Origin: Linyphia triangularis
Taxonomy: Eukaryota > Arthropoda > Arachnida > Araneae > Linyphiidae
NCBI GenBank assembly: GCA_963978545.1
Contig: OZ021727.1
Span: 91,457,262-91,521,261, forward strand
DNA length: 64,000 nt
Direction: 5' to 3'
Position numbers and translations under genes: made by a program. How positions within the stretch are numbered: the stretch's first letter is position 1; every line of letters begins with the position of its first letter. The notes beneath the pieces were generated by a model. It had not been told where the DNA came from. It searched no databases and saw only the letters and a list, made by a program, of their open reading frames with translations. Positions 1 to 20,060 of this stretch are shown here, one piece after another.

Positions 1-1352
1 TTTTCACTCACCTCTCCTACCCCCTTTCTTGAGTGGACCCTCCGATACCATTAACGGTTCACTACAATGGGGCTAGAGAACTCTCTTCACAGGGGGAGAA
101 GGGGGGGTATTTTTATTTTTGCATCGTCACAGAAGGGTGGGTAAAACAGGTAGTTTTCATTCTTATCTTTGGAAGCCTTTCATTTCACAGCTTCATGTCC
201 GAAACACAAATACTCTTTACTACTAAAGAAAACAAACAAAACGCCTTAAGGATTTACTAGTTGTCAACCTCTGCCTGGAAACCATATAAGGAAGAGAGAT
301 AAATTAACCTTAGCTTAGCAGGGGGTCGATTGCCCTTCTCTCGAAATGCTGCACTTGGAGACGTGAAAATGGTGTTTTTCTTCTTGGCGGGAACCCAGTC
401 CCTAAAGGATATTCCAGAAAACTGCTTTGGGAACTAAAGAGTTAATGTACTGTCGTTTATTGAACGAAGGACAAAAGTAAAATATTTTCTAAGACTGTGT
501 AAGTGTGGGTACTTTTCTATTTTGCTGGCGCAGACGATAAAGTCTCGAAAAATTATACTACAGACGTCAAACGGAATATCCCGACTGGTAACTTTTTACC
601 GCCACATTTTTTAAATAAGTGTTTGTATGCTGTGTGTTGTCACCCATAAAGTCTTCTTGGCTAGATTTGTGCTGCAAAATGGAAAAGTACCTTGTATTGT
701 TATTGCTTAGTTTTGCTGTATACACCTTTGGGAGTATGCACGATTTTTTGGGTTCCTAATAAATTGTTGACTTTGCGACAAACAAAAAAACCATTTTTGG
801 CCTAGGCTAAATATCAAATAAAAGTACCAAGTCGTCTTGTAGACAAAAAAATTTATCTATACTTGTTGAAATAATTTAACATTAGTTCTACTGTGTACAT
901 ATATGACAGCATCCATTTTCATAATTCTGATCCAATAGAGAGTGAGTTATGACATTCCCCATTTAGATGAAAGAATGAAGCCTTTTGAGCCCTTGGGTGG
1001 TTGGTGGAAACCGTAATGATTAAGTCGATGTGTAATAACATACATTTTCTACGTTTTACCCTTGTTGGCATTCAAGTTAACCTTATCCTTAGTTTCCCTT
1101 AGCCATGGTTTGTATGTTTTTAAAAAACCTTAAAAAGTGCTTGAAAAAAAAAACTTTCATTTTCAAGTACTTTTAAAATGTGTTTAAAGTGCTTGAATTT
1201 CATTTTATTTTCTAAAAATATAATATTCCCTTGAAATATTTTGGTTAAAAAAAATCCGCAAAATCCTTCGAATTTAGTTACGCCAGTGAGCGACCAGGAA
1301 ACAGCGAATACATACAAGATAGTGAGGTAATGAAGAGGGTATGTATCATAAG
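1..1352. other. No gene seen; probable RPS12 intron or upstream flank
   Basis: AT-rich sequence with short homopolymer runs. I looked for the missing upstream RPS12 exons (the conserved core preceding the V-D-S-N-K-K exon) and did not find them. Short open frames here have no recognisable content. Confidence 0.5.
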
Positions 1353-1780
1353 CAGGGTTCGTACGCCTTAAAAATAATCATTGAAGGGTAAAAAGATTAG
1401 TAAAACCTTAAAACGTAGCAATTTTTTTTACTCTGTAAAACTCTCTGAATCTGAAATTCTTCATAGTCTACTGTGCATGCGCTTCGTCACTACAACCTCA
1501 AAGGAAAACCCTCGGGTAATCCCAAAATACACCATTATTCTAGACAACCAGACGCTTAAAGGGTACACTATATTATAAGGTGTAATTTTTTTTCCCGTTA
1601 ACCTGTCTTTTAATATAGAATGTGCTTTACGGTCACAGCTTTTTATTTGTCGATTTTGGATAACTCGGCACCAGTGTGGTTCCATTCTAACTTGGAATCC
1701 ATTTTTGAAAATCTGTAGTTTGATGTTGATTCAACTTGGCAGCAAAATTGCCACACACAAAAAAGTGAGTACCGTAAAAC
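1353..1780. mobile_element. CAGGGTTCG-ended DNA transposon remnant
   Basis: It starts with CAGGGTTCGTACGC. Bases 1353-1612 are clearly homologous, in reverse orientation, to the element at 26961-27390; both share a segment reading CATGCGCTTCGTC. The right end is not identifiable, so the limit is approximate. Confidence 0.5.
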
Positions 1781-1844
1781 ACTTTCTACTAACCTCTGGA
1801 ACATGCTCCAGCAGATATATATTTTTCTAAAAAGTCTGGTTTAT

Positions 1845-2120
1845 TTAGAATTCTAATCCAAAAGAATTATACACATCTTGGATCTATTTATTTTTGCATC
1901 ATCTTAAATTTTAAATCAATATGTATTAAATAGGCAATAATTCGTATCAGTATAATAATAAAAACAAAATGTAGTGAGTTCAAGTTGCTGGCTGTTGCCA
2001 CATATATTAGTTAAATTTCAAAAGATATGGCGTGATTGGCTGGATTACTGAAATTGAAAATTCATGCATAAAGCACATTTAGAAAATTTGTGATTGAATA
2101 TTTAAAGTCGTTGCCATTCT
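1845..2120. repeat. Dispersed repeat, direct copy of 26627-26900
   Basis: About 270 bp align along their length with 26627-26900, starting at AATTCTAATCCAAAAG and ending at GTTGCCATTCTG. The right edge abuts the first partial unit of the snoRNA array, so this repeat may have clipped the array's left border. Confidence 0.7.
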
Positions 2121-2192
2121 GGTTCCAGCAATTATTTAATTATATCTACTAATTTTAATTAGGACAATATTGATGAATTCTAATCATATTTC

Positions 2193-2261
2193 TACTCAGT
2201 GATGACAAACAGGCTCCCTCTACTGAGTGATAATGAGGAACTGCTTTTCTGATTACCAGCA
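2193..2261 (+). ncRNA. Box C/D snoRNA-like unit 1
   Basis: Box C is GTGATGA (2199-2205), D' is CTGA (2223-2226), a C'-like GTGATAA follows at once, and box D is CTGA (2249-2252). The guide before D' is CAGGCTCCCTCTA. The flanking stem is imperfect here (TACT instead of TGCT). Confidence 0.7.
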
Positions 2262-2315
2262 ATTACATAATTATGTCTACTAATTTCAACTAGTGCAATA
2301 TTGATATCATATTTC

Positions 2316-2381
2316 TGCTAAGTGATGATAAACAGGCTCCCTCTACTGAGTGATAGTGAGGAACTGCTTTTCTGATCAGCA
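2316..2381 (+). ncRNA. Box C/D snoRNA-like unit 2
   Basis: Box C is at 2322-2328 and box D at 2372-2375. Flanking TGCT and AGCA lie close to the boxes, giving the best terminal stem of the array. The C' region reads GTGATAGTGAGG. The guide before D' is unchanged. Confidence 0.7.
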
Positions 2382-2463
2382 ATTATATGCATTAGGATTA
2401 TCAGCAATTATATGCATTCTGTGTCTACTAATTTCAACTAGTGCAATATTGATATAATATTTC

Positions 2464-2532
2464 TGCTAAGTGATGATAAACAGGCTCCCTCTACTGAATG
2501 ATAATGAGGAACTGCTTTTCTGATTACCAGCA
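2464..2532 (+). ncRNA. Box C/D snoRNA-like unit 3
   Basis: Box C is at 2470-2476 and box D at 2520-2523. One base after D' is changed (CTGAATGATAATGA). The guide is unchanged although the spacer before it differs from unit 2. Confidence 0.7.
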
Positions 2533-2589
2533 ATTAATTATGTCTTCTAATTTCAACTAGTTCAATATTGATGAATTTAAACATATTTC

Positions 2590-2658
2590 TGCTCAGTGAT
2601 GAAAAACAGGCTCCCTCTACTGAGTGATAATGAGGAACTGCTTTTCTGATTACCAGCA
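2590..2658 (+). ncRNA. Box C/D snoRNA-like unit 4
   Basis: Box C is at 2596-2602 and box D at 2646-2649. The core matches the array consensus. TGCT and AGCA flank it. Confidence 0.72.
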
Positions 2659-2710
2659 ATTACTTAATTATGTCTTCTAATTTCAACTAGTGCAATTCTA
2701 AACATATTTC

Positions 2711-2779
2711 TGCTCAGTGATGAAAAACAGGCTCCCTCTACTGAGTGATAATGAGGAACTGCTTTTCTGATCACCAGCA
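2711..2779 (+). ncRNA. Box C/D snoRNA-like unit 5 (next to the transposon)
   Basis: Box C is at 2717-2723 and box D at 2767-2770. The core matches the consensus. The spacer right of this unit is split by the element at 2791-4241, which leaves the snoRNA core intact. Confidence 0.72.
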
Positions 2780-2790
2780 ATTCCTTAATT

Positions 2791-4241
2791 CAGGGTTCCC
2801 ACGGTCCTGGAAAGTCCTTGAATTTTTTTTGATGAAATTTGGTCCTTGAAAGTCCTTGAAAAACGGATAAGGTTCTTGAAAGTCCTTGAATTTTTTAAGT
2901 GACTAATGACAGTGGTGTAGCGTAAAATAAAAAAATGTGGGAATGCTATGTTGCGTCGTTACAAACGTATATATTTTTTCTGTGTGTGTGGGGGGGGGGG
3001 GGAGAGTGAAAATGACAACTTTAAATAGTTTTGTTAATATTACTATAATAATCTCAAAATAGCTCATGAATTAAAAAAAAAAAAAAAAATTAAAAATTGC
3101 GTGTTTCGACTTATTCTTTTATTCAAATAATTTTATTAAACTAATAAGTTATATGGATTTTTAAATAATTTGCTTTGCACAACCCATTTTAAAAGATTGT
3201 TTAACACTTTATAAAGGATTATAACGCATTTTCAAACATATTATTGACACAAATTTTTTAAACATTTTTTACAACAATTTTCCAAAATGTCAGAGATGCC
3301 TTACATGCAATGGGTTCGGATAAATTCCCAGATTCTGTAGCTCCTCGAATTCTGTTTTCAAAATGAATGAAAAAGATTGGGATTGTTGCAGAAGTTGATT
3401 GAAAAGTTTTATGGCTTTTCTCCTTCTCATAAAGAAAATGTAGAGAAGTTCATCTTGCTTGATAGATCCTTCCTTTCCTTTTCCAAATTTGCTCCATTAA
3501 TAAAATAATTGGAAAATTCAAATCCAACTGTCGATTTAAATTTCTTGATAAAATATTAATTTGTGTGCCATCTCAATCATCTCTAATTTTAAGCGGGATA
3601 TTTCCCATGTAGACTCATTACTTGCCAGATTTGCTTGGGCTGCTTTTTTATCCAGTTCGATTTTGTCATTTCAACAGTGGTGACGATTAGGTGACAATAA
3701 TAGTCAAAAATGGGTATAAATCGGAGGAGAAAGCAAACTGCAAAATATATATGATATGGCCATCAAAATCACTAGATTTTAAAAATGATCGGAGAAATTT
3801 CCTTCCTTTATTGCCGCCACTGTATGATTTTTTTTTAAGAACTGCTGCTACATTTTTGGAATAAATTCTGTAATAACTGTAAATGTAAAACTTTCCCATT
3901 CTCAAATCGAAAAGCAATTCAATTTTGCATTTTAAAGTAGTACATCGGAATTGCTTTCCTACTTCTTCGCAGCCCAATTTCGATGTATTCCCATTTGGGG
4001 GGGGGGGGGAATTAGATGAGGGAACGTCATTCCGAGTACTATAAATGTAAAGGATCGCCGTTGCCTCGTGTTTCCACTCCACTACATCCCTGCCCACCGA
4101 AAATCTCCGTTTGGTAATTTTACATCTGATGTAGTATTTAAAATTATGGTCCTTAAATTTTTCTAAAAAGGTCCTTGAATTTTCTTAAAAAGGTCCTTGA
4201 AAGTCCTTGAATTTTTTTCTTTAATAAGAGTGGGAACCCTG
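2791..4241. mobile_element. CAGGGTTCCCAC-ended hAT-like element (family B) in the snoRNA array
   Basis: Terminal inverted repeat CAGGGTTCCCAC is present at both ends. The 6-bp target duplication TTAATT (2785-2790 and 4242-4247) is present once at the equivalent place in neighbouring units. Subterminal CCTTGAAAGT motifs are abundant. The reverse strand holds decayed coding-like stretches: a possible Myb/SANT-like segment (V-V-E-W-K-H-E-A-T) near 4030-4090 and a charged helical stretch near 3545-3660. A related, reversed copy is at 41686-43570. Confidence 0.85.
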
Positions 4242-4288
4242 TTAATTATGTCTTCTAATTTCAACTAGTGCAATTCTAAACATATTTC

Positions 4289-4357
4289 TGCTCAGTGATG
4301 AAAAACAGGCTCCCTCTACTGAGTGATAATGAGGAACTGCTTTTCTGATCACCAGCA
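4289..4357 (+). ncRNA. Box C/D snoRNA-like unit 6
   Basis: First of 13 homogenised 121-bp units. Box C is GTGATGA at 4295-4301, D' is CTGA, and box D is CTGA at 4345-4348. TGCT and AGCA flank the unit. Confidence 0.75.
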
Positions 4358-4409
4358 ATTACTTAATTATGTCTTCTAATTTCAACTAGTGCAATTCTAA
4401 ACATATTTC

Positions 4410-4478
4410 TGCTCAGTGATGAAAAACAGGCTCCCTCTACTGAGTGATAATGAGGAACTGCTTTTCTGATTACCAGCA
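4410..4478 (+). ncRNA. Box C/D snoRNA-like unit 7
   Basis: Consensus unit with box D at 4466-4469. TTACC rather than TCACC follows box D. Confidence 0.75.
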
Positions 4479-4530
4479 ATTACTTAATTATGTCTTCTAA
4501 TTTCAACTAGTGCAATTCTAAACATATTTC

Positions 4531-4599
4531 TGCTCAGTGATGAAAAACAGGCTCCCTCTACTGAGTGATAATGAGGAACTGCTTTTCTGATCACCAGCA
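4531..4599 (+). ncRNA. Box C/D snoRNA-like unit 8
   Basis: Consensus unit, 121 bp from its neighbours, with box D at 4587-4590. Confidence 0.75.
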
Positions 4600-4651
4600 A
4601 TTACTTAATTATGTCTTCTAATTTCAACTAGTGCAATTCTAAACATATTTC

Positions 4652-4720
4652 TGCTCAGTGATGAAAAACAGGCTCCCTCTACTGAGTGATAATGAGGAAC
4701 TGCTTTTCTGATCACCAGCA
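4652..4720 (+). ncRNA. Box C/D snoRNA-like unit 9
   Basis: Consensus unit, 121 bp from its neighbours; both boxes and the 18S guide are intact. Confidence 0.75.
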
Positions 4721-4772
4721 ATTACTTAATTATGTCTTCTAATTTCAACTAGTGCAATTCTAAACATATTTC

Positions 4773-4841
4773 TGCTCAGTGATGAAAAACAGGCTCCCTC
4801 TACTGAGTGATAATGAGGAACTGCTTTTCTGATTACCAGCA
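4773..4841 (+). ncRNA. Box C/D snoRNA-like unit 10
   Basis: Consensus core. It carries the TTACC variant after box D, as in unit 7. Confidence 0.75.
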
Positions 4842-4893
4842 ATTACTTAATTATGTCTTCTAATTTCAACTAGTGCAATTCTAAACATATTTC

Positions 4894-4962
4894 TGCTCAG
4901 TGATGAAAAACAGGCTCCCTCTACTGAGTGATAATGAGGAACTGCTTTTCTGATCACCAGCA
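4894..4962 (+). ncRNA. Box C/D snoRNA-like unit 11
   Basis: Consensus unit; both boxes and the 18S guide are intact. Confidence 0.75.
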
Positions 4963-5014
4963 ATTACTTAATTATGTCTTCTAATTTCAACTAGTGCAAT
5001 TCTAAACATATTTC

Positions 5015-5083
5015 TGCTCAGTGATGAAAAACAGGCTCCCTCTACTGAGTGATAATGAGGAACTGCTTTTCTGATCACCAGCA
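5015..5083 (+). ncRNA. Box C/D snoRNA-like unit 12
   Basis: Consensus unit; both boxes and the 18S guide are intact. Confidence 0.75.
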
Positions 5084-5135
5084 ATTACTTAATTATGTCT
5101 TCTAATTTCAACTAGTGCAATTCTAAACATATTTC

Positions 5136-5204
5136 TGCTCAGTGATGAAAAACAGGCTCCCTCTACTGAGTGATAATGAGGAACTGCTTTTCTGATCACC
5201 AGCA
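5136..5204 (+). ncRNA. Box C/D snoRNA-like unit 13
   Basis: Consensus unit; both boxes and the 18S guide are intact. Confidence 0.75.
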
Positions 5205-5256
5205 ATTACTTAATTATGTCTTCTAATTTCAACTAGTGCAATTCTAAACATATTTC

Positions 5257-5325
5257 TGCTCAGTGATGAAAAACAGGCTCCCTCTACTGAGTGATAATGA
5301 GGAACTGCTTTTCTGATCACCAGCA
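5257..5325 (+). ncRNA. Box C/D snoRNA-like unit 14
   Basis: Consensus unit; both boxes and the 18S guide are intact. Confidence 0.75.
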
Positions 5326-5377
5326 ATTACTTAATTATGTCTTCTAATTTCAACTAGTGCAATTCTAAACATATTTC

Positions 5378-5446
5378 TGCTCAGTGATGAAAAACAGGCT
5401 CCCTCTACTGAGTGATAATGAGGAACTGCTTTTCTGATCACCAGCA
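5378..5446 (+). ncRNA. Box C/D snoRNA-like unit 15
   Basis: Consensus unit; both boxes and the 18S guide are intact. Confidence 0.75.
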
Positions 5447-5498
5447 ATTACTTAATTATGTCTTCTAATTTCAACTAGTGCAATTCTAAACATATTTC

Positions 5499-5567
5499 TG
5501 CTCAGTGATGAAAAACAGGCTCCCTCTACTGAGTGATAATGAGGAACTGCTTTTCTGATCACCAGCA
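5499..5567 (+). ncRNA. Box C/D snoRNA-like unit 16
   Basis: Consensus unit; both boxes and the 18S guide are intact. Confidence 0.75.
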
Positions 5568-5619
5568 ATTACTTAATTATGTCTTCTAATTTCAACTAGT
5601 GCAATTCTAAACATATTTC

Positions 5620-5688
5620 TGCTCAGTGATGAAAAACAGGCTCCCTCTACTGAGTGATAATGAGGAACTGCTTTTCTGATCACCAGCA
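5620..5688 (+). ncRNA. Box C/D snoRNA-like unit 17
   Basis: Consensus core. The spacer to its right carries a single substitution. Confidence 0.75.
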
Positions 5689-5740
5689 ATTACTTAATTA
5701 TGTCTTCTAATTTTAACTAGTGCAATTCTAAACATATTTC

Positions 5741-5809
5741 TGCTCAGTGATGAAAAACAGGCTCCCTCTACTGAGTGATAATGAGGAACTGCTTTTCTGA
5801 TTACCATCA
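5741..5809 (+). ncRNA. Box C/D snoRNA-like unit 18
   Basis: Last of the homogenised block. The core is consensus; TTACCATCA follows box D, so the AGCA half of the outer stem is lost. Confidence 0.7.
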
Positions 5810-5843
5810 ATTACTTAATTATGTTTTCTAATTTCAACTAGTG

Positions 5844-5907
5844 CAATATTGATGAAAGGCTCCCTCTACTGAGTGATAGTGAGGAACTGCTTTTCTGATT
5901 TCTAGCA
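5844..5907 (+). ncRNA. Box C/D snoRNA-like unit 19 (deletion at the 5' side)
   Basis: A deletion joins spacer sequence directly to the guide, so box C is replaced by a spacer-derived TTGATGA (5849-5855). The guide is shortened to AGGCTCCCTCTA. D' and box D (5895-5898) remain. Confidence 0.5.
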
Positions 5908-5978
5908 ATTATAAGCATTATGACTTCTCTGTTTACTAATTTTAGTTATTGCAATATTGATGAATTCAAACATATTAC

Positions 5979-6047
5979 TGCTCAGTGATGATAAACAGGC
6001 TCCCTCTACTGAATGATAATGAGGAACTGCTTTTCTGATTACCAGCA
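5979..6047 (+). ncRNA. Box C/D snoRNA-like unit 20
   Basis: Box C is at 5985-5991 and box D at 6035-6038. The core is intact although both spacers are diverged, like those of units 1-3. Confidence 0.7.
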
Positions 6048-6109
6048 ATTATGTAATTATGTGTAATAATTTCTACTAGTGCAATATTGATTAATTCTAA
6101 ACATATTTC

Positions 6110-6178
6110 TGCTCAGTGATGAAAAACAGGCTCCCTCTACTGAGTGATAATGAGGAATTGCTTTTCTGATTTCATTAT
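6110..6178 (+). ncRNA. Box C/D snoRNA-like unit 21
   Basis: Box C is at 6116-6122 and box D at 6166-6169. There is one change in the second guide region (GAATTGC), and the AGCA side of the outer stem is missing. Confidence 0.6.
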
Positions 6179-6292
6179 TATATACCTTAAAAGTTCTGTA
6201 CCTATTAATTTTTCTAGCGGAATGTGCATTGATAGAAAACATGCTTTTGATGTTAGCAGTAGTTTAATGTTGATCTAATACAGACATTAATA

Positions 6293-6356
6293 CAGCTGAT
6301 TGATAAAAATATGACTCCCTCTACCGTGTTAGAAGAAGGAATTGTTTTTTCAATCA
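6293..6356 (+). ncRNA. Degenerate snoRNA-like unit 22 (relic)
   Basis: ATTGATAAAA stands where box C should be. The motif GACTCCCTCTACC survives from the guide. D' and D are lost (CCGT and CAAT). Probably dead. Confidence 0.4.
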
Positions 6357-6679
6357 TTTTCATATCTGTATTTATTATAAGTTCAGAACCTATTGATTTT
6401 TATCCGTTGCCGCATTTTTGAAAGTTTAGACCTTCTTGAATATAGTTTTACCTTATGTAAAGTTTGTAAGAAATGTGATGCAAAATATATTTTATATTGA
6501 ATGTCCCTGTTTTATATTGCTTCTATGTTATATCGGTACAATTTGTTTTCATGAATGCTTGGTTATCTGAACAAATTGGTTACTGAAATTTTCTATATTA
6601 TCTGTGCATGGTTAGGTCAAATCAATAAGTTATTATTAACGTGTTGGTTTTCACTACAAATATTTTTAATAAGCATCTT

Positions 6680-7895
6680 CAGGAGTCGCAGACGTCCTAT
6701 AAATCCTATATTTTTTTAAAAATTGGCAAAAACGTCCTATATTTTACAATTGTCCTATAAATCCTATATTTCTATATTGATTCGATCTATATTTTCTTCG
6801 AATTCGTAATAACGGCGCCTTTCGTTGCCATTTTTTATATTTCGGATTCTTTGCCGCGATTGTAGGTAAAAACACCTGACAAAATCAATGCTTGTAACGG
6901 AGCGTTTTATCTCTTGTGACGTCACGTGCTGTATAACCTACAACTCCACTGGAACGGCGGGAGTTGTAAACATGTGAACTTTTTCATAGTACGCGGTCTT
7001 GAATTTCTGATTTGTTTTCTCCTCCAACGTAGTAAATTAATTGGATACAGAGAGAGAGATGCAGCAACATAACTGCCTCGGGAAAAACGGATGAAAACGA
7101 CTTGTGATTAACTTGCAGGGCTACTAAAGGACATTTTGAGTGCTCAATCAATAATTGATGAAGGAAACAAAAGGGTTAAGAATTACTGTATGATGTCGGA
7201 TGACGATTTTTTTATTCCAAATCCGATACGGATTCTGCGCCACGAATTGTTTAAACGGCACCTAATTAGGGCAACCATAGGTAGTTCTCTTGCTCTTAAA
7301 AAAGTGACGGGCTGCCATTTTTTAGCGAAAATCACCTTGGCGCAGAATCCGTATCGGATTCGAAATATTAGCCACGATTTTTTCATAAAAGTCGCCAAAA
7401 TTGAAAATGACGTCAATACGTTGTGATGTCAAATCCAGACAGTCATTAGGGTTTCCGGAAAACCAAATCCCCGCATTCGGCTCTAAATCTCCCACTTTTC
7501 GCCGCCAATCCAACCGACACTGAACAGTAAATCTGAACCAACAAAAGACTGCAAACAGGGATAAAAAGAAAATACTTAAAGAAATTGGAGCAGTTCAAGC
7601 AGTTATAGATACTGGGAGCAAAAGACTCAAGATTGCAAATAATGTAATTAATAAAACTTGATTTAGGGATGGAATATTGAGGCAATAACGGATGACATAT
7701 TCAGGATCAGGCGATTTCTTTTTTTTTAAGGTGTGTTTTATATTCTCTTAAATACAGTATAACGAGTTTATAAATGTATAACTAGTTAATTTTTAAGTTC
7801 AGTAGCAACTATGTGCAGTTATTTGATGTTTTAAATTGTCCTATATATTTTTTTTGAAAATCCTACATATTCTTATTTTGTCACTTTGACCCCTG
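6680..7895. mobile_element. hAT-like element ending 39 bp before an RPS12 exon
   Basis: Ends are CAGGAGTC and, on the right, GACCCCTG. The 6-bp duplication CATCTT is present on both sides (6674-6679 and 7896-7901). Both subterminal regions are rich in TCCTATAAATCCTA-like motifs. No transposase domain is recognised; an open frame of 96 codons at 7136-7426 overlaps an internal inverted repeat and is not convincing as a gene. Confidence 0.8.
7220..7360. repeat. Perfect 23-bp inverted repeat inside the element
   Basis: 7220-7242 and 7338-7360 are exact reverse complements, and each contains the small palindrome ATCCGATACGGAT. The loop is 95 bp. It may be the ends of a tiny nested element or a transposase-binding structure. 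Confidence 0.7.
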
Positions 7896-7934
7896 CATCT
7901 TATTTAATGCCATTTTTTTTTTTTTTTTTTCTAG

Positions 7935-8036
7935 GTTGACAGCAATAAAAAGTTAGGGGAATGGGCTGGTCTGTGTACATTTGATAAGGAAGGAAAAGCT
8001 AGGAAGGTTGTTGGCTGCAGTTGTGTTGTTGTGGTA
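7935..8036 (+). CDS. RPS12: Ribosomal protein S12, penultimate coding exon
   Basis: Encodes 34 residues reading [18 protein letters not shown], then [12 protein letters not shown] and four valines. This is the C-terminal half of eS12, a protein of the 40S subunit; human RPS12 reads almost the same here (K-K-L-G-E-W-V-G-L-C). The acceptor is a long T run then CTAG; the donor is GTAAGT at 8037. It joins in phase 0 to the exon at 9973. Earlier exons, including the start codon, are not visible. The upstream intron carries the snoRNA-like array and two transposons. Confidence 0.93.
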
Positions 8037-8538
8037 GTAAGTATAACTTGTACTCTGTTTTCCCAAGTCCGTAAAAACCATTGCAATGAATCAAATAGCG
8101 TTAAAATGTTTGTAGTATGGCTAGTTCCTTACTCTGCCATGAGTTTGGCTAGGATGATTAGATTGTAAAAGTGCTTTAATGTTTCATAAATGTATGCCAG
8201 ACTGATATCAGGATCTCAACTTCTGAATAATTGCCTTAAAATTCCTAATATTTCCTAAATTTTTGTTATCCTTAAAAAGGATTTTTTTTTAAAAAAAAAC
8301 GGAAAATTCCTACAAAATCTGCAAAAAAAAAACCTCGACTATTATTTTGCTAAAGTTATTTGAAGTTAAATTTTTTGAAAATTGTCGGAAGTGAATTATA
8401 GTTTGCAATACCACTTTTGCTGTCTTTTCTTGTCCAGAAAACTCATTTGATTTTGTAGCCATGCCTCTCGACATGCCAATTAATTTAAAAGGTTTTCTTT
8501 GTAAAAGACGTCTGTTTGGTTCCTCTTACTGTCTTTTA

Positions 8539-9770
8539 CAGGAATAAGATTTGTCCTCCTTTTTTTGCTTTTTATATAACATTTCTTAGTCCCTGTTTTG
8601 AGGATCCACATTTTTCTGATCTGACCCAATTTTCCCTGCAAAAAGTATACTTTTCCTCATGTCTAAACAAAAAAAATCCCTCTTCGCTCCCTTTCCTCAC
8701 AGATTACTTCACAAGCTCCTCGCAGCAAGGAACACTTTGTACTGTGATTTATTCTAAATGTATTATAGTGTAATGGAAAGTTGTGAGGTGTTCCACGCTC
8801 CTAGTTTATTGAATTTTGGTGTATTCCTTCCACGAGCTTTTGGGTATCGTCCCCTCCTCTTGCTTTTTTTAACATAGACTTATTATTATCAATAGACTGC
8901 GCGTTTCCATTTCAATTATACAACGAGAATGAATCACATGAGTAGGGACTTTTTGGCAGATTTGGCGGGTTTCTCCTCACTCGGGCGATAAACAAAAACA
9001 TATTTATGAGTGTACTGTAAAACCTTAACTAAATAGAAAATTTACAACATAGCACTTGTAAAAGGTTATTGAGCCTCCTTTCTGGAATTTTTCTTTGCAA
9101 CCAAATGCAGAACAATATTTCACCATTTTTCTTGTATTCACATACTTTCCGTCAAACGCATTTCGGCGTTTTCCAATGGAATGAGTGGGGTTTTTTTATC
9201 TTCTTCGTCTATCAGTCACGTGGTTTTTAATTTGGTTACACGATGTTACTCTAAACATGCGGTCTATACTAAACTTCAACTTAACTTGACATCACTAGAC
9301 GGTAGATCGTCACAGTGCTCATAGGTATTTAATCCATTTTGGCGGCGTGAAGGCATAATTTTCGCCAAACCACAACACTGTAGAGAACAAAAGGCGATAA
9401 GATTTGGCGAGAATTATGTCTTCACTCCGCCAAAATGGATTAATTGCCTATGAGCACTTTGAAGATCTATCGTCTAGTGATGTTAAGTTGGAGTTTAGTA
9501 TAGCAACCAACAATTTAACATACAAGACTATGTCGTAAAATTAATCCTTGATCTAATAATCTTACTATCCTTTATCGCCTGAGTGAGGAGAAACCCGCCA
9601 AATCTGCAACCCTGCTCCCAAAAAGTCCCTACTCATGCGATTCATTTTGGTTTCATTCTTGTTGTATAATTGAAGTGAGAACGCGCTTTCTATTGATAAT
9701 AATAAGTCTATGTTTTTTAACAAATTTTTTGTATTTCCTCCTTTTTGCTCTCTGACCACTCTCATCCCTG
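8539..9770. mobile_element. CAGGAAT-ended element with nested insertions
   Basis: The left end CAGGAATAAG and right end CATCCCTG are flanked by a 6-bp duplication CTTTTA (8533-8538 and 9771-9776). Parts match the element at 11770-12183 (shared CCTGCAAAAAGT and TTCCTTCCACGAG). Between them lies a foldback with arms near 8868-8993 and 9572-9722, which itself contains a 240-bp MITE. Confidence 0.7.
9264..9503. mobile_element. 240-bp palindromic MITE, copy 1
   Basis: Ends are CTATACTAAAC and GTTTAGTATAG. The whole element folds back on itself: GACGGTAGATC pairs with GATCTATCGTC, and CCATTTTGGCGGCGTGAAG pairs with its mate. Copies of the same length lie at 22334-22573 and 61241-61480. The TATA-type ends fit a Tc1/mariner-like MITE with TA duplication, which is an inference. 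Confidence 0.85.
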
Positions 9771-9972
9771 CTTTTAACAGACATACATGTTTTGATGGAT
9801 GTGTTTTTTAAGCTTGGTTTAGATTGTGAATGAACTCATTTTCTATAATAAAATATTGCAATACAGGCAATTTAATTATAATATTGGTCTTTTTCTTTCT
9901 AAAAGCATGAAAGTTGCTTTTTTTTACTGTTGACTTAATTTAATCTCTCTTCTTTTTTTTTTTTTTTAATAG

Positions 9973-10038
9973 GATTATGGAAAGGAAACCCAAGCACATG
10001 ATGTACTAAATGATTATTTCAAGTCAAAAAGAGCGTAA
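9973..10038 (+). CDS. RPS12: Ribosomal protein S12, final coding exon
   Basis: Encodes D-Y-G-K-E-T-Q-A-H-D-V-L-N-D-Y-F-K-S-K-R-A and a TAA stop, matching the C terminus of eS12 (human: D-Y-G-K-E-S-Q-A-K-D-V). The acceptor is AATAG at 9968-9972, phase 0. Confidence 0.95.
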   Translation, partial: DYGKETQAHDVLNDYFKSKRA

Positions 10039-10053
10039 TGTAAGAAGAGTTGT

Positions 10054-10059
10054 AATAAA
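10054..10059 (+). terminator. RPS12 polyadenylation signal
   Basis: AATAAA lies 16 bases after the stop codon and is followed by an A-rich stretch and GT-rich sequence. Such a short 3' UTR is usual for ribosomal protein genes. Confidence 0.75.
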
Positions 10060-11769
10060 TTGAGAAAAAAAACATCGTCTTTGTTTACTTTTGTATATTT
10101 CTCGGATGGCCAATTTGTAAAAAATTTTATAACGTGAGGGATTTGAGTTTTTATTTTAAGTTATTCAAATAATGTTCTTTACATAAACCCATATTAAGTT
10201 TTATATATTTTCGACTTGGGGAAAAAAAGGTTATATAAAAATCAAATATCATTTGAATATTGTTGATAGCACAAGTAGACTAATTTTTTTTTAGAGAATT
10301 CAATAAGTTTGTTGGCAAATTTTAAATGAATATGTATTTTTTTAGTTGCTAGCTGTGTGACTCCATGTTGCTGAGACACGTCAATGTGTAAAGGTAAACA
10401 CAAGAAATCGGTGCCTGAATTTCTCTGGTAGCAACCCTGAAAAAGTTGGTGATTAGATTTGTAAAAAGAGTTTTCAGTTTAATCACATTAAGTTTAGATA
10501 TGCCTTTAGAGATATTTCCGCTATAATATTGGGAAGGCAATCCCTTTAGAGAACATTCCTGGCTTTAATTTTTCACCTACAAGTATTTATTTAAAAGTTT
10601 ATGCCCTTTTTTTTGTGTGTTTCTCAAGTATTTAGGGGTATCAAGATTTTAGGGGACTTGGTACCCTTTTTAAACTATTTTTTTAATTTAAACTTTTAAA
10701 ATTATAATTTTTTGCATATGTGGAAGTACAGTCGAACCCCACTATAATGACACTGGTATAGTGGCACAGAACCTGGAAATGTCGGGGAGCTTTCTGATTC
10801 TGGAAAAAATTAGTTTTTTTTAAATGTCGCGAAAATATGAGAAATTTTCTTTGTTCTGAGGCACGTTTCTTCCCCCGTTCATCCATATTTTGGCCGAAAA
10901 ATTGTGGTAATCGTTAAAAGTTTAACGTTATTGAATAATTTAAACTTTCCATTGCCTCCAACACTTTCAACTAGGGGTGTGGAAAATCGCACAGCTTTCA
11001 ACTACACTATTATACTGATATCAATTTGTGTCATTTACCATTTGTATATTTTCATCATTCATTTAAAAGAAATGGCCAGTTTTGCGATAATTCTGGTGTG
11101 GGTGTATTAAAAAAAAATGACGATTTTAGCGATATACTTTTCAATCTATATATTTAATAGGCAATACGTTTTTTGGGGTTAGTCCGTCCGCCTAAACTGC
11201 TCAACCAATTTCAATGATCAAGTTGTCATTTTAAAGGAAATAAGCTGTAGATTTGCCAAAATAATTTATTAACACTTTATTAATTAGTTAAATTTCAATA
11301 TTTTTCATCATTAAGCTACTACAAAGCCTCAATGATTTTGAATATATGAATGGCAACATCCTTACGTATGTAAACAACAAATCCGTTGCTAATTTTAAAG
11401 CTCTTTTTAAACTCTTCGTTTCAAAGTTGATTTTTTCTGTTTTTCTGAAGCATTTTTGTATTAGAGTAATTATTATTTTGAAGTATTTCTATCCAGAAAA
11501 TGCCTCGCTTTGGACCTAATGAAGTTTTAAGTCGGAATGTTGGCGGATAGTGTATTTAACTTTCTATTATGAAACTTGCAATTTGGGTGTTTTCTCTATT
11601 AGGCCTTGCATTAAATTTATAAAAATTTGGTTACATTTTTTATGGCTGGCAAACCTATTCGAGCGCAGCAAAATGTTTTAACCACAAATTCGAGCGCACC
11701 GAGGCGTTTGGGAGTTCGCCCCCTGGTAATCCTTATATTATCCTTTATTATAAGCGAAACTGATAGGAG
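10060..11769. other. Intergenic, mostly unidentified
   Basis: AT-rich. Bases 10755-10965 are a diverged, reversed remnant of the CAGGGTGGCCAC family (shared GAGCTTTCTGATTCTGG and TTCATCCATATTTTGG). Near 10731 CAGTCGAACCCCACTATAAT resembles a Tigger-type end. No gene was seen in the rest. Confidence 0.5.
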
Positions 11770-12183
11770 CAGGAATGACAGTTTTCCTCCTTTTGGAGAA
11801 TTTCCTCCTTTTTGGTTTTTTATGTAATATTTTCCTTCTCTTTGTCCCTGTTTTAAGGATCTGCATTTTTTTTATCTGAACCAGTTTTTCCTGCAAAAAG
11901 TTTACTTTTCCTCATGTCTGAACATAAGATTTTCCCTCTTAGCTCCCCTTTCCTTACAGATTACTTCACTAACTTCTAATATTTGAAATGTAATTATTAT
12001 ATAGTATGAGAAATTTCATTGTATCTTTAAAATTATTGAATCATCCTTTCCTGCATACTTATTTGATAGATTTTTTGTGTATTCCTTCCACGAGCTTTTT
12101 TAACGAATTTTTGGATTTCCTCCTTTTTGCTCTCTGATCACTCGAACGAATTTTTGAATTTGCTCTGATCACTCTCATCCCTG
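11770..12183. mobile_element. CAGGAAT-ended element, short copy
   Basis: The left end CAGGAATGACAG and the right end, which reads CAGGGATGAGAGTG in reverse, form imperfect inverted repeats. The interior matches 8539-8870 and 9720-9770. No clear target duplication was found. Confidence 0.65.
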
Positions 12184-12300
12184 AGGCATTAATTTTTCAA
12201 CTTTTTACGCCATAAAACATTTTTACGGGAATTTCGGAGGTAGAAATGCTTAGAACACCTTAAGAGGCATTACCACAGCAATTTTTGTCAAAATCTTTAG

Positions 12301-12480
12301 GCCGACCAAACTGTATAGTGGTTAGCGTGCTAGCTTCTAGACCGAGAGGTTGCGAATTCGAGTCCCGTGTAAGGCATGGGTGTTTGTAAATGTATATTGG
12401 CTTGTGAAATGACGAATATTTTGGCGCATTATAGCCCTCGTGTTGCTCACGGCGCCAGATAATCTGAAAAAAACAATCAA
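12301..12480 (+). mobile_element. tRNA-derived SINE, copy 1
   Basis: It has a Pol III A box-like TAGTGGTTAGCGTGC and a B box-like region reading GAATTCGAGTCCC, followed by a shared body (GGCGCATTATAGCCCTCGTG) and an A-rich tail. It is about 180 bp and clearly related to 41217-41395 and 43818-43998. Confidence 0.8.
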
Positions 12481-12727
12481 AATCGTTAGAGCCGTTTTTT
12501 AACAGTCATTGAAAAACATGAGTTTTTCAATGGCAGCTACCTTATGCGCACTAACCCTCATACCAAATTTGAACACCGTAGGTCAATTTGTTCGGGAGTT
12601 ATGCTGACCACAGACGGACAGTTTTTCAAGATCACTCTTTGGAAATCAGGATGCTCCAAAACGTGGAGAAATACAAAAAGATTATATTTTTTTTACCAAA
12701 TGCTATACTTTCATTACCCTATGTATC

Positions 12728-12896
12728 TCTCTATATAAGGCAAAGCCCTCACTGACTCACTCATCACTAATTCTCCCACTTCCCACATATTCACAACTCT
12801 GAAAATCGGCACAGATATCAACAATGGTAAAAATAGAAAAAGTAAGCTATTCCGATCTCGATTAACCCACTTTAAGGGGTCGAAAAGGGGTTAAAC
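12728..12896 (+). repeat. First satellite unit, split by a transposon
   Basis: From about 12775 this is one unit of the satellite that continues at 16566. The preceding TCTCTATATAAGGC followed by repeated GACTCACTC-like sequence resembles the 5' end of some Helitron-like elements, but this is weak. Confidence 0.6.
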
Positions 12897-13168
12897 CAGG
12901 GTGCGTACGCGGCCTGGAAAACCTGGAAAGTCCTTGAATTTCATTATTTTTTTTCAAGGCCTTGAATAACCTGGAAAAATAGGATTATTTCTAAAAAAGC
13001 CTGGAAAGTCCTTGAATTTCCCATTTTCAATTCTAAAACCATAAAATTCTCGTTCCCGTATTACCATTATTCTGACGTCACACTTTCTAGCCGGTTCACT
13101 TTTGGCGGATCTGTTAATCACACTTGAATCGGTTCCTCCCGAGCGGCCCTGGAACGGCACGGTCACTA

Positions 13169-13181
13169 TGACCTTTGACCT
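13169..13181. promoter_or_regulatory. Perfect DR1 nuclear receptor element
   Basis: TGACCTTTGACCT is, in reverse, AGGTCAAAGGTCA: two AGGTCA half sites one base apart, the consensus for RXR/HNF4-type receptors. It lies in a locally GC-richer part of the transposon just upstream of its transposase fragment. Binding is untested. Confidence 0.4.
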
Positions 13182-13456
13182 CTCCCCGAAAGGGACAAAA
13201 AGTTGCACGATGAGTATCCGGTGGAAAGAGGGTGTAATTTGATATGCAGGATATTTTCGCTTTTCTCTCTCTCTCCCTCATTAGGTGCATTCTCAAACGA
13301 CCAAAATTTTCCTCTGAGAGGATTTTGTGTTTGTTGGAAATGGAATGAAAAAGAGCGCGCTTAGCATATTTGTAAATAAAATATCGAAGGGAAAAGAATC
13401 GAATTAATCGCACTATGTGAATTCATCCCATTGTTTAGAGCCGATCAACATTCGGT

Positions 13457-13645
13457 ATGTTCTTCTGTCTTTACCCGCAGTTAAGGGAAGACAAAGTAAA
13501 AAATTTCAACTTTTTCCGGATGTCGATTGAGAGCTTCGACGAGTTGGTGGAGAAATTATGTTCCAGACTGCAAAAACCCGACACTAACTATCGGAGGAGT
13601 ATATCGCCTACAGAGAAAATAGCAGTTACGCTTCGGTATTGTATT
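13457..13645 (+). pseudogene. PIF/Harbinger-type transposase N-terminal fragment
   Basis: The open frame reads L-R-E-D-K-V-K-N-F-N-F-F-R-M-S-I-E-S-F-D, continues to D-T-N-Y-R-R-S-I-S-P, then E-K-I-A-V-T-L-R-Y. This is the conserved region just before the DDE nuclease core in HARBI1-like proteins (F-R-M-S, then T-N-x-R, then E-x-x-x-x-T-L-R-Y). After L-R-Y the expected L-A-T-G is absent and the frame soon ends, so it is truncated or interrupted by an intron. No catalytic DDE residues were found downstream. Confidence 0.7.
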
Positions 13646-16565
13646 ATGATTTATATCATTCTTTCATTTATGTCGATTCCTATTTAAAGAAAGAAGAATT
13701 TCTTTTTCTGTAGAAGGTGAAGGGTATGTAGTTTTTTATATCAATTACTAAAATGGCCTACTTTAAAGCCGTGAAAGTTATTAACTAAGGTTGCTGGGGG
13801 AAAAAACCTTCCAATTTTATTAAATTTATTTTGAGCTCTTTAAAAAAAATTCTAATTACAGGGGTGTAAGAGCTGTTCTAATTGCGCCAAACTGACTACC
13901 CTGCTCCAAACTGCGCCAAAAACCTCTTTTCGGTTAAGATTGCGCCGAACTGCGCCAAAAAATGATTTTTTGACTTGAAAAACTACTTGGCTAGAATTTT
14001 GTCTCGAAATTTTTCAAAATTATCAAAAACGTCACCAACAAAGCGATAAAGAGTATTTTGCCCTTCAAGGGCGTTTTTCGTCGGTTAACGTGCCGGAAAA
14101 GGTTCGCACTTGAAAATACATATTACAATCTCTCAGTTTTGTTGTAGGTTTTTCAAACTATAAAGAAGTAGTAAATGAATCAGTGTGTATCTGATTTAAA
14201 TCTGTTTTCTTGGCTGATTTTAGGTATAGAAAATTAATACTTTTTTTTATACTTATAGAATACATGTTTTTTTTTTTTTTTTTTTTAATTTTTTTTTTTT
14301 ACTGAGACTTCGTGCTAAAAATAGAATACAAGTATTGTATTTTTCACACAAGAAATCTTAGTGCATCTGGTTTAGATTTGCACTCTTGCCTGGTTTCAAT
14401 AATAAAGAAATATATAGCTTTCTTTAAGCTAAAAGAAAACGCGAATATTTTTTAATTTCTAAGTCATCGGTAAAACGGGATTTGAATTTTGAACTTGCCT
14501 TTTTGATTATCTGGAAGGATTGGTAACTATTAGTAAATGATTTTTTGGCAACGCTGGATGTTGGATCATGATTTTGACTTTGCAACGAACGGGAAAACGC
14601 ATATTACGTCATTCTTTTATTGTAGCCAATTCCCAGAAAAAGCGCAAAGTCGTACCCTAGACTAGAAATTTTACGAAGAACTTGAATGGGGGATTTAAGC
14701 TATGTCTTTATTTAAAAAAAAGTAAGGATTTCTTGTATTTACAAATATTTGTTCCTTTAAATTAGCGATAGGAAAGATCAGGGATTCGCGGCAGTTTGCC
14801 CCTTGCTCCGTTAAACTTCAACCAACCAACCAGGGATTCGCGCTTTAAATTCAAACTGTAGAAGGCATGAAATCAATCTTTATGCATCCAATTTGGATAT
14901 TTTTTTCTTGCCTGTTTGTAAGTAAAAATAATAAATATTTTTCTTAGTACTTTAAGAGTGCATGATTATTTTTTTGGCACATATTTAAAAAAAAAAACTA
15001 ACCAAATAACCACAGACTTAAGATCATTTTGTTTCCATTGACCTTGAGATTTCACATGGGAACCCTCTAATCCATTTAGACAATGGAGAGTGTTAGAAAA
15101 CAAACCACTACAAAAATTAATATTTTTCAGCTTGCCTTGTTTTAGTTTATTATTTAATTACATTAGAAGTTATTTCTTTATGTTAAATGCTAGTATAATT
15201 GTCTAATTTCAGTTAGAGGTTTTAATTTGTTTGAGTTTAAAAAAAAATTATCTTCCAATAAACAAATAGCCCTAAAAAATCTGCTAAGTGAAGCTATCAG
15301 TCCAAACAAGTTATGAAATCTAATGCTTGCCGCTAAGCAGCCTTGTTTCACTTTTTTTTGCATGGGGGGGGGGGGGGGAGGAAGTACTTTGTATCGAATT
15401 AAATTATTTTGGATTATTGGGAAGAACTTCTATAGGTAATTGGTACTAGGCAGACTAGAGTTTTTAAAGAAAAAAATCTTATTTCATCAGTTGTTAAAAG
15501 TAGCTCTAACTGAGATTATTTCGAAAAACTTTCAGTGATGAACCGAATCTTATGATTGGTTGGTTAGTTTTTGTGGCGCAAAAGCAACACTAGGGCCATG
15601 CTGTGCCCCGAACCTTATGATATCATGTCATCACTGAAAACTTCCTAATATTTTAATTGTTTGCAAAGAGGTTAATAAATGCCATGCTTTTTAATTTATT
15701 TTTTGAGTAATGCAATCAAATTAATAATTGTAAATTTAGAATGCAAACGTATTTATGAACAAGTTACACCTTTTTTTTACTTTAAATTAATTTGAAATAT
15801 CAAGGTTGAAATATACAAAAATATTTACTTCATCACTAATTTAAATGTAATAATTTTCTGCTCCAAAACCACATTTTGCTGCTTCAAAATCGTATTTTTA
15901 CTCAAAGCCGAAGGAGGGGGTTTAAAAAATTACTCGCTTTTTTCGAGTTATCGAAGAACTATCTATTTCTGTGGCTAAAAATTATCGACTCCGAGATGGA
16001 AACCTCAGGGAATTTTTTTTCTGAAAATGTGTATGAACCCTGTTTAAAGAATAGTATCTCTAAATAAAGTACTAAAATTTAATGTGATTTGAATGTCCAC
16101 ATAAGTAGGAATAATTGTTTATTTACTTAGTTTAAATTATTTTCAGAAAAAATGTTAATTATTATTTAAACATTAATTATTCTAGTTAATGACAAATTTT
16201 ATTTATAAATACGAGTACGTGTAATTAGAAAAGAATTAACCCGGTTTAAACAAAAAAAAAACTGGTTTAAACCCCAAAATTTTTTTTTTTTTAACCTAGT
16301 TTTTTTCCTTATCCTGGTAAGAGGTATAATTATCAATAAATATATGTGGTTGCATCTTAGTTGTTAAGTAATAAGTATTTTAATTCTTTTTGCAACTTCG
16401 TTAATTAAAAAAAAATATATAAAAATTAAATTTTGGTATCGACTCTGCAACGGTAAAACAGGGCCTTGATTTTTGTTGAAATATCCTTGAAAAGGGCCTT
16501 GAAAATCCTTGAAAAGGGCCTTGAAAGTCCTTGAATTTCACTTCCAAAAAAGTGTATGCACCCTG

Positions 16566-18255
16566 TTAAACGCTCCAAACGAGGGACATTCGAAAATCCT
16601 ACTTCCCATTTGGTCACAACTCTAAAAATTAATACAAATATTAACAATAGTAAACATAGAAAAAGTAAGCTATACCGATCTCGATTAACCCTCTTTAAGG
16701 GGTTAAACGTTCCAAACGAGGGACATTCGAATATCCTACTTCCCATTTGATCACAACTCTAAAAATTGGTACAAATATTAACAATGGTAAAAATAGAAAA
16801 AGTAAGCTATTTCGATTTACCCACTTTAAGGGGTTAAACGTTCCAAACGAAGAATAATCGAATGTCCTACTTCTCATTTCGTCACAACTCTAAAAATTGG
16901 TGCGAATATCGATACAGACAAACGAAGAAAAAGTAAGCTATTCCGATCTCGATAAACCCACTTTAAGGGGTGGAAAGGGGGTTAAACGTTCCAAACGATG
17001 GACATTTGAATGTCCCACTTCCGACATGGCCACAATTTTGAAAATTGGCTTAAATACCAACAATGTTAAACATAGAAAAAGCATGCTAATCCGATTTCGG
17101 TTAACCCACTTTAAGGGGTCGAAAAGGGGTTAAACGTTCCAAACGAGGGATATTCGAATGTACCACTTCCTACATGTCCACATATCTGAAAATTGGAGCA
17201 AATGTTGACATAGGCAAACATAGAAAAATTAAGTTATTCCGATCTCGATTAACCCCCTTTAAGAGGTCGAAAAGGGGTTAAACGTTCCAAACGAGGGATA
17301 TTCGAATGTCCTACTTCCCATTTCGTCACAACTCTGAAAACTGGTGCAAGTATCAACAAAAACAAACGTAAAAAAAGTAAGCTATTCCTATCTCCTTTAA
17401 CCCACTCTAAGGGGTTAAAAGTTTCAAACGAGGGATATTCGAATGTACCAATTCCCATATGGTAACACCTCTAAAAATTGGTACAAATGTCAACAATGGT
17501 AAACATAGAAAAAGTAAGCTATTCCGATCTTGATTAACCCACTTTAAGAGGTCAAAAAGAGGTTAAACGTTCCAAACGAGCGAGATATTCGAATCTCCTA
17601 CTTCTCATATTGTCACAACTCTGAAAACTGGTGTGAATATCAGTAAAGACAAACGCAGAAAAAGTAAGCTATTCCGATCTCGGGTGTATGAAGGGGTGGA
17701 AAAGGGGTTAAACGTTCCAAACGAGGAATATTCGAATGTACCACTTCCCATATGGTCACAACTCTAAAAATTGGTAAAAATATCAACAATGACAAACATA
17801 GAAAAGTTAAGCTATTACGTGCTTGATTGACCCACTTAAAGGGGTTAAACATTCCAAACTCGAATATCCCACTTCCCATATAGTCTCAACTCTGAAAATT
17901 GGTAGGAATGTCAATAAAGATAAACGTAGAAAAAGTAAGCCATTCCGATCTCGAATACCCACTTAAGGTTTGCAAAAGGCGTTAAACTTCCAAACTAGGG
18001 ATATTCGAATGTCCCACTTCCCATTTGGTCACAACTCGGAAAATTGGTACAAATGTCAAAAAAGATTAAACATAGAAAATGTAAGCTATTCCGTCCTCGA
18101 TTAACCAATTTTAAGGGGTCGAAAAGGGGTAAAATGTTCCAAACGAGGGATATCCGAATGTTCCTCTTCCAATGTAGTCATATTTCTGATATTTGGTGCA
18201 AATGTTAAAAAAATAAGTCATTCCAATATCGATTAACGAATTTTTAAGGGATTAA
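16566..18255. repeat. 129-150-bp satellite, about 12 units
   Basis: Units carry TTAAACGTTCCAAACGAGGG, then a CCCACTTCCCAT region, then AAAAATTGGTACAAAT, AGAAAAAGTAAGCTATTCCG and a TTAACCCACTTTAAGGGG end. The AAGTAAGCTA motif falls near 16663, 16801, 16930, 17079 (variant), 17229 (variant), 17374, 17510, 17658, 17804, 17933, 18079 and 18210. Units differ by many substitutions. One reversed unit is at 39820-39945. Open frames repeating M-G-S-G-I-F-E-like sequence on the minus strand are artefacts of the repeat. Confidence 0.9.
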
Positions 18256-18518
18256 AGTCGAGGCAACATTGCAACTATACGAGGATTAACTTAATGTCTC
18301 AATTCCAATACAGCTACTACTTTGAAATTTAGAACTAAGAGCAAACATAAACACAATAAACTATTCAATTTACTATTCACAATTATAAATTTCGTTTAAA
18401 ATGTCAACAAAGGAAAGTTCCTATTTTGATCAATCAATTTGTCGGGATCGAAATGGGAGCAAACGTCTGAAGTGTAGAATACGTGAATGTCTTTTAATCG
18501 CTAAAATGCTAATGGTAA
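18256..18518. other. Satellite-edge sequence, no gene
   Basis: AT-rich transition from the last satellite unit. An open frame starting at 18401 may be the frameshifted upstream part of the Mutator-like fragment. Confidence 0.35.
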
Positions 18519-18707
18519 AATTTCATAATATGTACCAAAAATTGGGGAGCATCGTCTTCGTCTATGGAATCGGGCATTATAGTTGAAGGAATTTTATCTA
18601 GTGTGAAAAACTATGATATGAAGTACCATCAAGTTATTGCTGATGGGGACAGTAACGTTTACAAGAATATTGAAAGCATGCACCACAAAAACAAGCGATT
18701 AAAATGA
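18519..18707 (+). pseudogene. Mutator-like transposase fragment
   Basis: The frame reads C-T-K-N-W-G-A-S-S-S-S-M-E-S-G-I-I-V-E-G, then Y-H-Q-V-I-A-D-G-D-S-N-V-Y-K-N-I. The pattern S-S-x-x-M-E-x-x-I-I-x-E-G followed by D-G-D-S-x-V-Y is typical of the Mutator-like transposase family found in invertebrates. It is bounded by stops at 18516-18518 and 18705-18707, so it is a remnant. The assignment is by motif memory only. Confidence 0.55.
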
Positions 18708-19199
18708 GCATAAAAAACAATTAAAATATGGATTAAATAGTGAAGCATAAAATGTTTTTAATTTGCTTAAACAAATTAGTTCTCTTATACTTTAAAGGAA
18801 AGTTATGGCGTCAATTTTAAAAAACTAAATTATAATGGAATTGTGATTTTTTTTTTTTTTGTGTGTGTGTCTTACTTTTATAACAGATACATACTGATGG
18901 CATTTTACCACCTTTTCCGTTTGTAAGCTTTTTATTACATTGTTTGGAAATAATGAAACTGCATAATGTCCCTAAGACGTCGCTGGTACATCAACAACTT
19001 GTAATATTTAAGGGATTACACGAATGATTGAATATTGTACAGGGCCTATTGTGGTCTATTCTGTGTTGTGGCAGTCGTGGTCTATTTGGGCAGTCGTAAA
19101 AAATTGAAAAATAAGGAAATTAAAAATATGATTTTATTAAAGGAGTGCAATTATTATTCGTCTTTTTGAATTTGATTATAATAAAATCTAAAATGACTT
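18708..19199. other. Gap between convergent genes, nothing recognised
   Basis: AT-rich, with a T run and GT repeat near 18850. No open frame or repeat family was recognised. Confidence 0.4.
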
Positions 19200-19880: not shown

Positions 19881-20060
19881 CTAAGAGATGCAATAGAATA
19901 CCATTATTAAAAATTATGCTCATAATATTGCTTAAAAATATGAAGTCACAGAATGGGGGGGGGGGGGGTCCCTGATATTCCTCTGAAAATTTTCAGTCAC
20001 TAAATATTAAAATTCTTAGGTTTTTTCTATATATATAAAATATATATATATTTTATGTTA

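Follow-up and report, generated by a model that had tools for sequence, protein, structure and literature searches.

Tandem Array of SNORD100-Type Box C/D snoRNA Genes in One RPS12 Intron of the Spider Linyphia triangularis

The stretch of 64,000 nucleotides analysed here (the window, C6:91457262-91521261, equal to positions 91,457,262 to 91,521,261 of the forward strand of contig OZ021727.1, GenBank assembly GCA_963978545.1) comes from the spider Linyphia triangularis and contains, within a single intron of RPS12, a tandem array of 21 units which, as read from their sequence, are SNORD100-type box C/D small nucleolar RNA (snoRNA) genes. The best explanation overall, which we regard as probable, is that an intronic SNORD100 gene was amplified to 21 copies, homogenised in the middle of the array, carries a guide for 18S ribosomal RNA (rRNA) and is transcribed with RPS12, giving a higher snoRNA dosage. 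From sponges to vertebrates RPS12 is the reported location of SNORD100, the predicted guide for 18S Gm436, and among the animals examined there only those with intensive intron loss had none found in this gene (PMC3412847). Since RPS12 is the reported animal host of SNORD100 (PMC3412847), what stands out is the number of copies: the snoRNA itself is old, and its amplification is the new part.

Identity of the Array Units

The motif GGCTCCCTCTACTGA is present in 21 exact copies between 2212 and 6129, all of them on the plus strand, which is the host strand, and none on the minus strand. Scanning of both strands of the window for the boxes in their proper order (RTGATGA, 3-25 nt, CTGA, 10-45 nt, CTGA) returned 20 occurrences, all inside the array and again none on the minus strand; the arrangement that defines a box C/D snoRNA, RUGAUGA followed by CUGA as D′ and D, is therefore found in 20 of the 21 units. 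The exception is unit 19 (guide at 5858), where the own box C region is deleted and TTGATGA stands in its place. A sequence-only reading that preceded this work had proposed snoRNA-like units on the host strand, which these counts bear out, and had missed their SNORD100-type identity. Because motif counts begin from chosen motifs, a motif-free repeat search matters here: it identified a 62-nt segment in 22 copies, and the additional copy, at 6288-6349, is a decayed unit with 73% similarity to the reference.

Nothing in the window reaches the curated gathering scores of Rfam, whereas a permissive scan of positions 1-20000 (82 matches) placed RF00609 (SNORD100) as the best-scoring family for 21 units, with 29.6-45.9 bits and E values from 3.2e-7 to 0.012. 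Every one of these scores lies under the curated cut-off of 58 bits (best 45.9), and the units are therefore termed SNORD100-type and are not formal Rfam members. In the six alignments shown, GGCUCCCUCUACUGA is identical to the model, and a gap falls where the model has a longer D′-to-D stretch. Throughout the genome (a 1.35-Gb assembly of 369 contigs), the search with RF00609 (E up to 10; 61 of 53,849 candidates scored) listed 22 matches, of which the array accounts for 21. Weak RF00609 matches are not rare, as 12 of 14 control genomes gave them, none above the cut-off, and for this reason the SNORD100 identity rests on host gene and guide together and not on the score.

Two sorts of candidates were rejected. 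The 22nd genomic match (contig C15, 24.3 bits, E 6.5) is without the guide and was ascribed to chance. Weak matches of the archaeal families sR3, sR5 and snoPyro_CD to the same units were put down to shared C/D boxes, given that SNORD100 scores higher.

The host gene is represented by plus-strand exon matches, two of them inside the window (7935-8006 and 9973-10032) and another at L009:9073-9297, ahead of its first base. Same-strand RPS12 exons flank the array, in agreement with the intronic location proposed earlier, and the units occupy an RPS12 intron on the host strand as expected for a SNORD100 orthologue. This intron, the last but one of the RPS12 coding part, is 8,637 bp long (window -702 to 7934, starting 702 bp before base 1) and lies in phase 0, with the junctions AAG|GCAAGT (L009:9298) and TTTCTAG|GTTGAC. 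It appears to use a GC donor, i.e., to be a GC-AG intron, because an exon prolonged as far as the following GT would contain an in-frame stop codon. The start-codon exon could not be found. A genome-wide search revealed no second RPS12 locus (two matches, both exons of the host gene, from three candidates scored), and the TAG counted in the second match lies within the splice acceptor. In mouse, Snord100 occupies intron 4 of Rps12 and Snora33 intron 5 (PMC10287158). The spider intron also contains, at 7213-7367, a 30-nt inverted repeat with arms 93% complementary and 95 nt apart.

Predicted Target in 18S rRNA

The target search was made on one 10-kb stretch of ribosomal DNA (rDNA), L038, where Rfam places 18S at 204-2015 and 5.8S at 2377-2530, with no 28S listed. 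The D′ guide forms 12 Watson-Crick pairs with the spider's own 18S at L038:595-606, beginning one base from the box, while none of 100 shuffled guides reached 12 pairs (maximum 10). Methylation by box C/D guides falls on the fifth nucleotide from the box. By this rule the predicted methylated nucleotide is L038:598, which is G395 of spider 18S. It would correspond to human G436, the equivalence resting on PMC3412847; with that correspondence the D′ guide is complementary to the same 18S site as the guide of SNORD100. For the D guide no convincing target was found in the L038 stretch: its 8 pairs were equalled or exceeded by 40 of 100 shuffles, so that the array RNA looks like a single-guide RNA.

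A 31-base 18S pattern occurs at 547 places in the genome (288 + 259) with at most two mismatches, against 0 for the control. Many of the listed 18S matches are about 15.5 kb apart, and they are spread over many contigs; one group, C6:96408124-96454604, is near the end of the contig that carries RPS12.

Organization of the Array

The elements discussed are given below in window coordinates.

1..7934, plus strand: host intron, part within the window
2199..2252, plus strand: core of unit 1, a diverged edge unit; 54 nt, box C through box D
2322..2375, plus strand: unit 2 core, diverged edge unit
2470..2523, plus strand: unit 3 core, the array's best Rfam SNORD100 match (45.9 bits over 2463-2530)
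2596..2649, plus strand: unit 4 core
2717..2770, plus strand: unit 5 core, last unit ahead of the insert
2791..4241, no strand assigned: transposon-like insert of 1,451 bp in the spacer between units 5 and 6, bounded by inverted ends (CAGGGTTCCCAC / GTGGGAACCCTG) and flanked on either side by the direct repeat TTAATT
4242..5814, plus strand: homogenised block, units 6-18, 13 head-to-tail 121-bp units
4295..4348, plus strand: unit 6 core
4308..4318, plus strand: main part of the D′ guide of unit 6, GGCTCCCTCTA with CA before it; counterparts at the other 20 motif sites
4416, 4537, 4658, 4779, 4900, 5021, 5142, 5263, 5384, 5505, 5626, 5747, plus strand: core starts of units 7-18 in 121-bp steps
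5849..5898, plus strand: unit 19, own box C region deleted, TTGATGA instead
5985..6038, plus strand: unit 20 core, diverged edge unit
6116..6169, plus strand: core of unit 21, the final intact one; the 3′ flank has been replaced, and with it the possible stem
6288..6349, plus strand: relic of a decayed unit, CTCCCTCTACC, in which box C and D′ have degenerated
7935..8036, plus strand: RPS12 exon after the array intron, translation ending VVVV, then GTAAGT (from reading frames and splice sites)
9973..10038, plus strand: last RPS12 coding exon with stop codon, DYGKETQAHDVLNDYFKSKRA (from reading frames and splice sites)

Counted from box C to box D, the core is 54 nt long in every unit but unit 19 (20 of 21), and within the 121-bp block about 67 nt separate neighbouring cores. 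The block, whose 13 units the sequence-only reading had recognised, extends over 4242-5814, exactly 13 units in length; compared in a 121-nt frame, 10 of the 21 units are identical and two further ones have a second sequence in common. The extent of 2123-6360 assigned earlier takes in the 1,451-bp transposon-like insert as well, and the surrounding intron starts 702 bp before the window. Spacing across the insert is 1,578 bp, i.e., 121 + 1,457, from which it follows that the array was already periodic when the insert arrived. Within the window the ends of the insert are repeated, CAGGGTTCCCAC at 9 places and GTGGGAACCCTG at 7, as those of an abundant transposon-like family, with insert-type ends beyond the array at 22772, 25178, 25553, 36223, 36624, 40115, 43559, 52939, 53334, 53883, 54244, 56337, 56733 and 59684.

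Proposed Origin and Release of the RNAs

The most probable course of events starts from one intronic SNORD100 gene in RPS12 of the spider lineage, which would have undergone tandem amplification to 21 copies; unequal exchange or conversion would then have homogenised the middle of the array and left the edges to diverge. All units would be transcribed as part of the RPS12 messenger RNA precursor, each intact unit could yield a guide RNA of the box C/D class, roughly 65-70 nt long, and its D′ guide would direct 2′-O-methylation of 18S G395 (putatively human G436). The likely effect would be more SNORD100 per RPS12 transcript, and snoRNA dosage would thereby be coupled to RPS12 expression.

Release of the inner units is the demanding step. 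Animals mostly have one snoRNA per intron (PMC11028025), and with 21 units in one intron the release of more than the outermost requires cuts within the excised intron, beyond exonuclease trimming; if trimming proceeded from the ends alone, at most the outer units would be cleanly released. Cleavage within the excised intron may liberate the inner units. In its strongest form this would make the array a polycistronic snoRNA operon in one animal intron, with endonucleolytic release of many SNORD100 RNAs and a role as dosage amplifier for one 18S methylation, a possibility that we put forward as tentative.

Besides the sub-threshold Rfam scores and the D guide lacking a convincing target, several observations on processing signals weigh against the probable explanation. 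Terminal stems were assessed by a simplified form of the method of PMC10234308, with mature ends and 20-nt flanks assumed. The stems of the flanks are weak: 13 units share a value of -4.1 kcal/mol, the 21 units range from -0.4 to -9.8, and only three (units 2, 3 and 20) beat the mean of -6.4 for 400 random intron positions. Seventeen of the 21 units could form a 4-bp TGCU/AGCA stem, which does not adjoin the boxes, and terminal-stem energies show no advantage over those at random intron positions; terminal stems are described as more stable in expressed C/D snoRNAs (PMC10234308). One core when folded was no better than shuffles (z -0.31), nor was one whole 121-nt unit (z 0.61), and the hairpins of one spacer did not surpass chance (z 0.94). 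Finally, 1,765 nt lie between the end of the last intact unit and the 3′ splice site, the reported optimum for vertebrate C/D snoRNAs being about 70 nt, which is also the distance found for Drosophila DmSnR60 (PMC1821038). In mitigation, expressed human intronic snoRNAs are mostly farther from the branchpoint than assumed, according to PMC10234308.

Constraint on Units and Alternative Explanations

Weak stems and the distant splice site would suit an intronic minisatellite, in which replication slippage or unequal crossing-over enlarged a SNORD100-bearing segment, one or few units being active and the rest passengers, with copy number functionless. The middle of the array, where both spacers and cores are near-perfectly homogeneous (10 of the 21 units are identical), is what recent expansion would leave regardless of function, and unit 19 together with the relic at 6288 demonstrates some decay. 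Passengers, however, should decay evenly, and the units at the edges do not. The comparison set was made of units 1-4, 20 and 21, which are older and diverged and lie on both sides, plus one core unit. Here 37 of 1,134 core comparisons show a difference (3.3%), against 250 of 1,293 (19%) for the spacers, which bear indels as well, and the boxes (C, D′ and D) and the 13-nt guide show not a single change. For this contrast a permutation test gave p ~5e-5, but when the core frame is shifted circularly, 3 of the 118 positions, counting the unshifted one, give a value as low. When all 21 units are compared, 203 of 11,160 core positions are different versus 1,171 of 12,900 in spacers, and the guide differences (20 of 2,730) stem from unit 19. 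An alignment-free count gives 80 differences of 420 in the 20 bases before box C and 180 of 420 in the 20 bases after box D, or 26 of 200 without two units with changed flanks. This pattern suggests that several copies are under selection, i.e., may be working, and the contrast of cores and spacers is what speaks most strongly against a single active unit amid passengers, which leaves the minisatellite explanation rather unlikely; conversion limited to cores would be an alternative account of core conservation.

A different role would be exerted in cis: snoRNA-protein complexes assembled on the array might slow splicing of the presumed GC-AG intron or give rise to long non-coding RNAs with snoRNA ends (sno-lncRNAs), tuning RPS12 itself. 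The putative GC donor, the 8.6-kb intron and the many units in it would fit, and two snoRNAs per intron are known to yield sno-lncRNAs (PMC11028025). A purely structural role in cis would not need the guide, which is nevertheless intact in 21 of the 22 units of the motif-free search, and we hold this possibility to be improbable.

Ordinary satellite DNA resembling a snoRNA by chance would account for the regular 121-bp period and is hardly tenable, being largely refuted by the 12-bp 18S match beside D′ in the reported host gene of SNORD100, by the genome-wide RF00609 matches listed, 21 of 22 in the array, and by the genome-wide DNA search with the 121-bp unit, in which all 21 matches listed lie in the array intron (best candidates only scored, very common words skipped). 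The sequence-only reading had named copies of the repeat elsewhere in the genome as the finding that would speak for such a satellite; as far as the search shows, the matches listed include none. The pattern of box C plus guide had no match in viral contigs, admittedly a poor place to look, and in the open-licence literature no title or abstract opening describing a SNORD100 array was found.

Comparison With Known Systems

The array is real and moderately surprising. Intronic snoRNA clusters of rice and Drosophila are, to our knowledge, small and are not homogenised arrays of one guide. Copies of U17 in RPS7 introns of Fugu represent an amplified snoRNA in a ribosomal-protein gene, but they are of the H/ACA class and stand one per intron. 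With the rice and Drosophila clusters the array shares the presence of more than one snoRNA per intron (PMC2780460). With SNORD100 of RPS12 (HBII-429, RF00609) it has in common the host gene, the strand, the D′ guide GGCUCCCUCUA followed by CUGA and the 18S target (PMC3412847), whereas the spider has 21 units in one intron, a D′-to-D part shorter than in the Rfam model and scores below the cut-off.

Large tandem repeats of C/D snoRNAs, for which homogenisation by conversion is discussed, are represented by SNORD113/114, SNORD115/116 and rat Bsr; the eutherian-specific SNORD113/114 and SNORD115/116 are described as orphan snoRNAs in repeated introns of long non-coding RNAs at imprinted loci (PMC11028025). 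In contrast, the spider array has an rRNA guide and 121-bp units, with about 67 nt between cores, in a single protein-coding intron. The likeness to SNORD115/116 drawn by the sequence-only reading is accordingly weak and partial: it extends to large C/D tandem repeats and stops at the 18S guide, where those clusters are orphan, at 21 units within one intron in place of one snoRNA per repeated intron, and at the protein-coding host. An arthropod parallel is provided by Drosophila mfl, a gene of the snoRNA-protein machinery with several isoforms of one rRNA-guide C/D snoRNA, DmSnR60; there, however, the four isoforms occupy an intron each, at a distance of about 70 nt from its 3′ splice site (PMC1821038).

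Other Features of the Window

Outside the array intron, a tandem repeat of about 148 bp occupies 16565-18180, with seven copies in one row, and the 19-bp repeat TATTGTATTGTATTATGTA is present in 13.7 copies at 35078-35336. On the minus strand, 62027-62716 belongs to the gene for Polycomb group RING finger 3 (PCGF3), open without introns over this stretch; its top match is from Oedothorax gibbosus (85%), and the next six named matches, which we take to be all from spiders, have 70-76% (among the best 120 of 1,169 hits).

Implications

Twenty-one units in one intron constitute a strong departure from the one-snoRNA-per-intron habit of animals and raise the question of how such an intron is processed. 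If the tentative operon were true, it would act as a dosage amplifier in a spider whose assembly has several hundred 18S matches. As the array carries an ordinary rRNA guide with a predicted site, whether snoRNA copy number alters the level of an rRNA mark becomes directly measurable.

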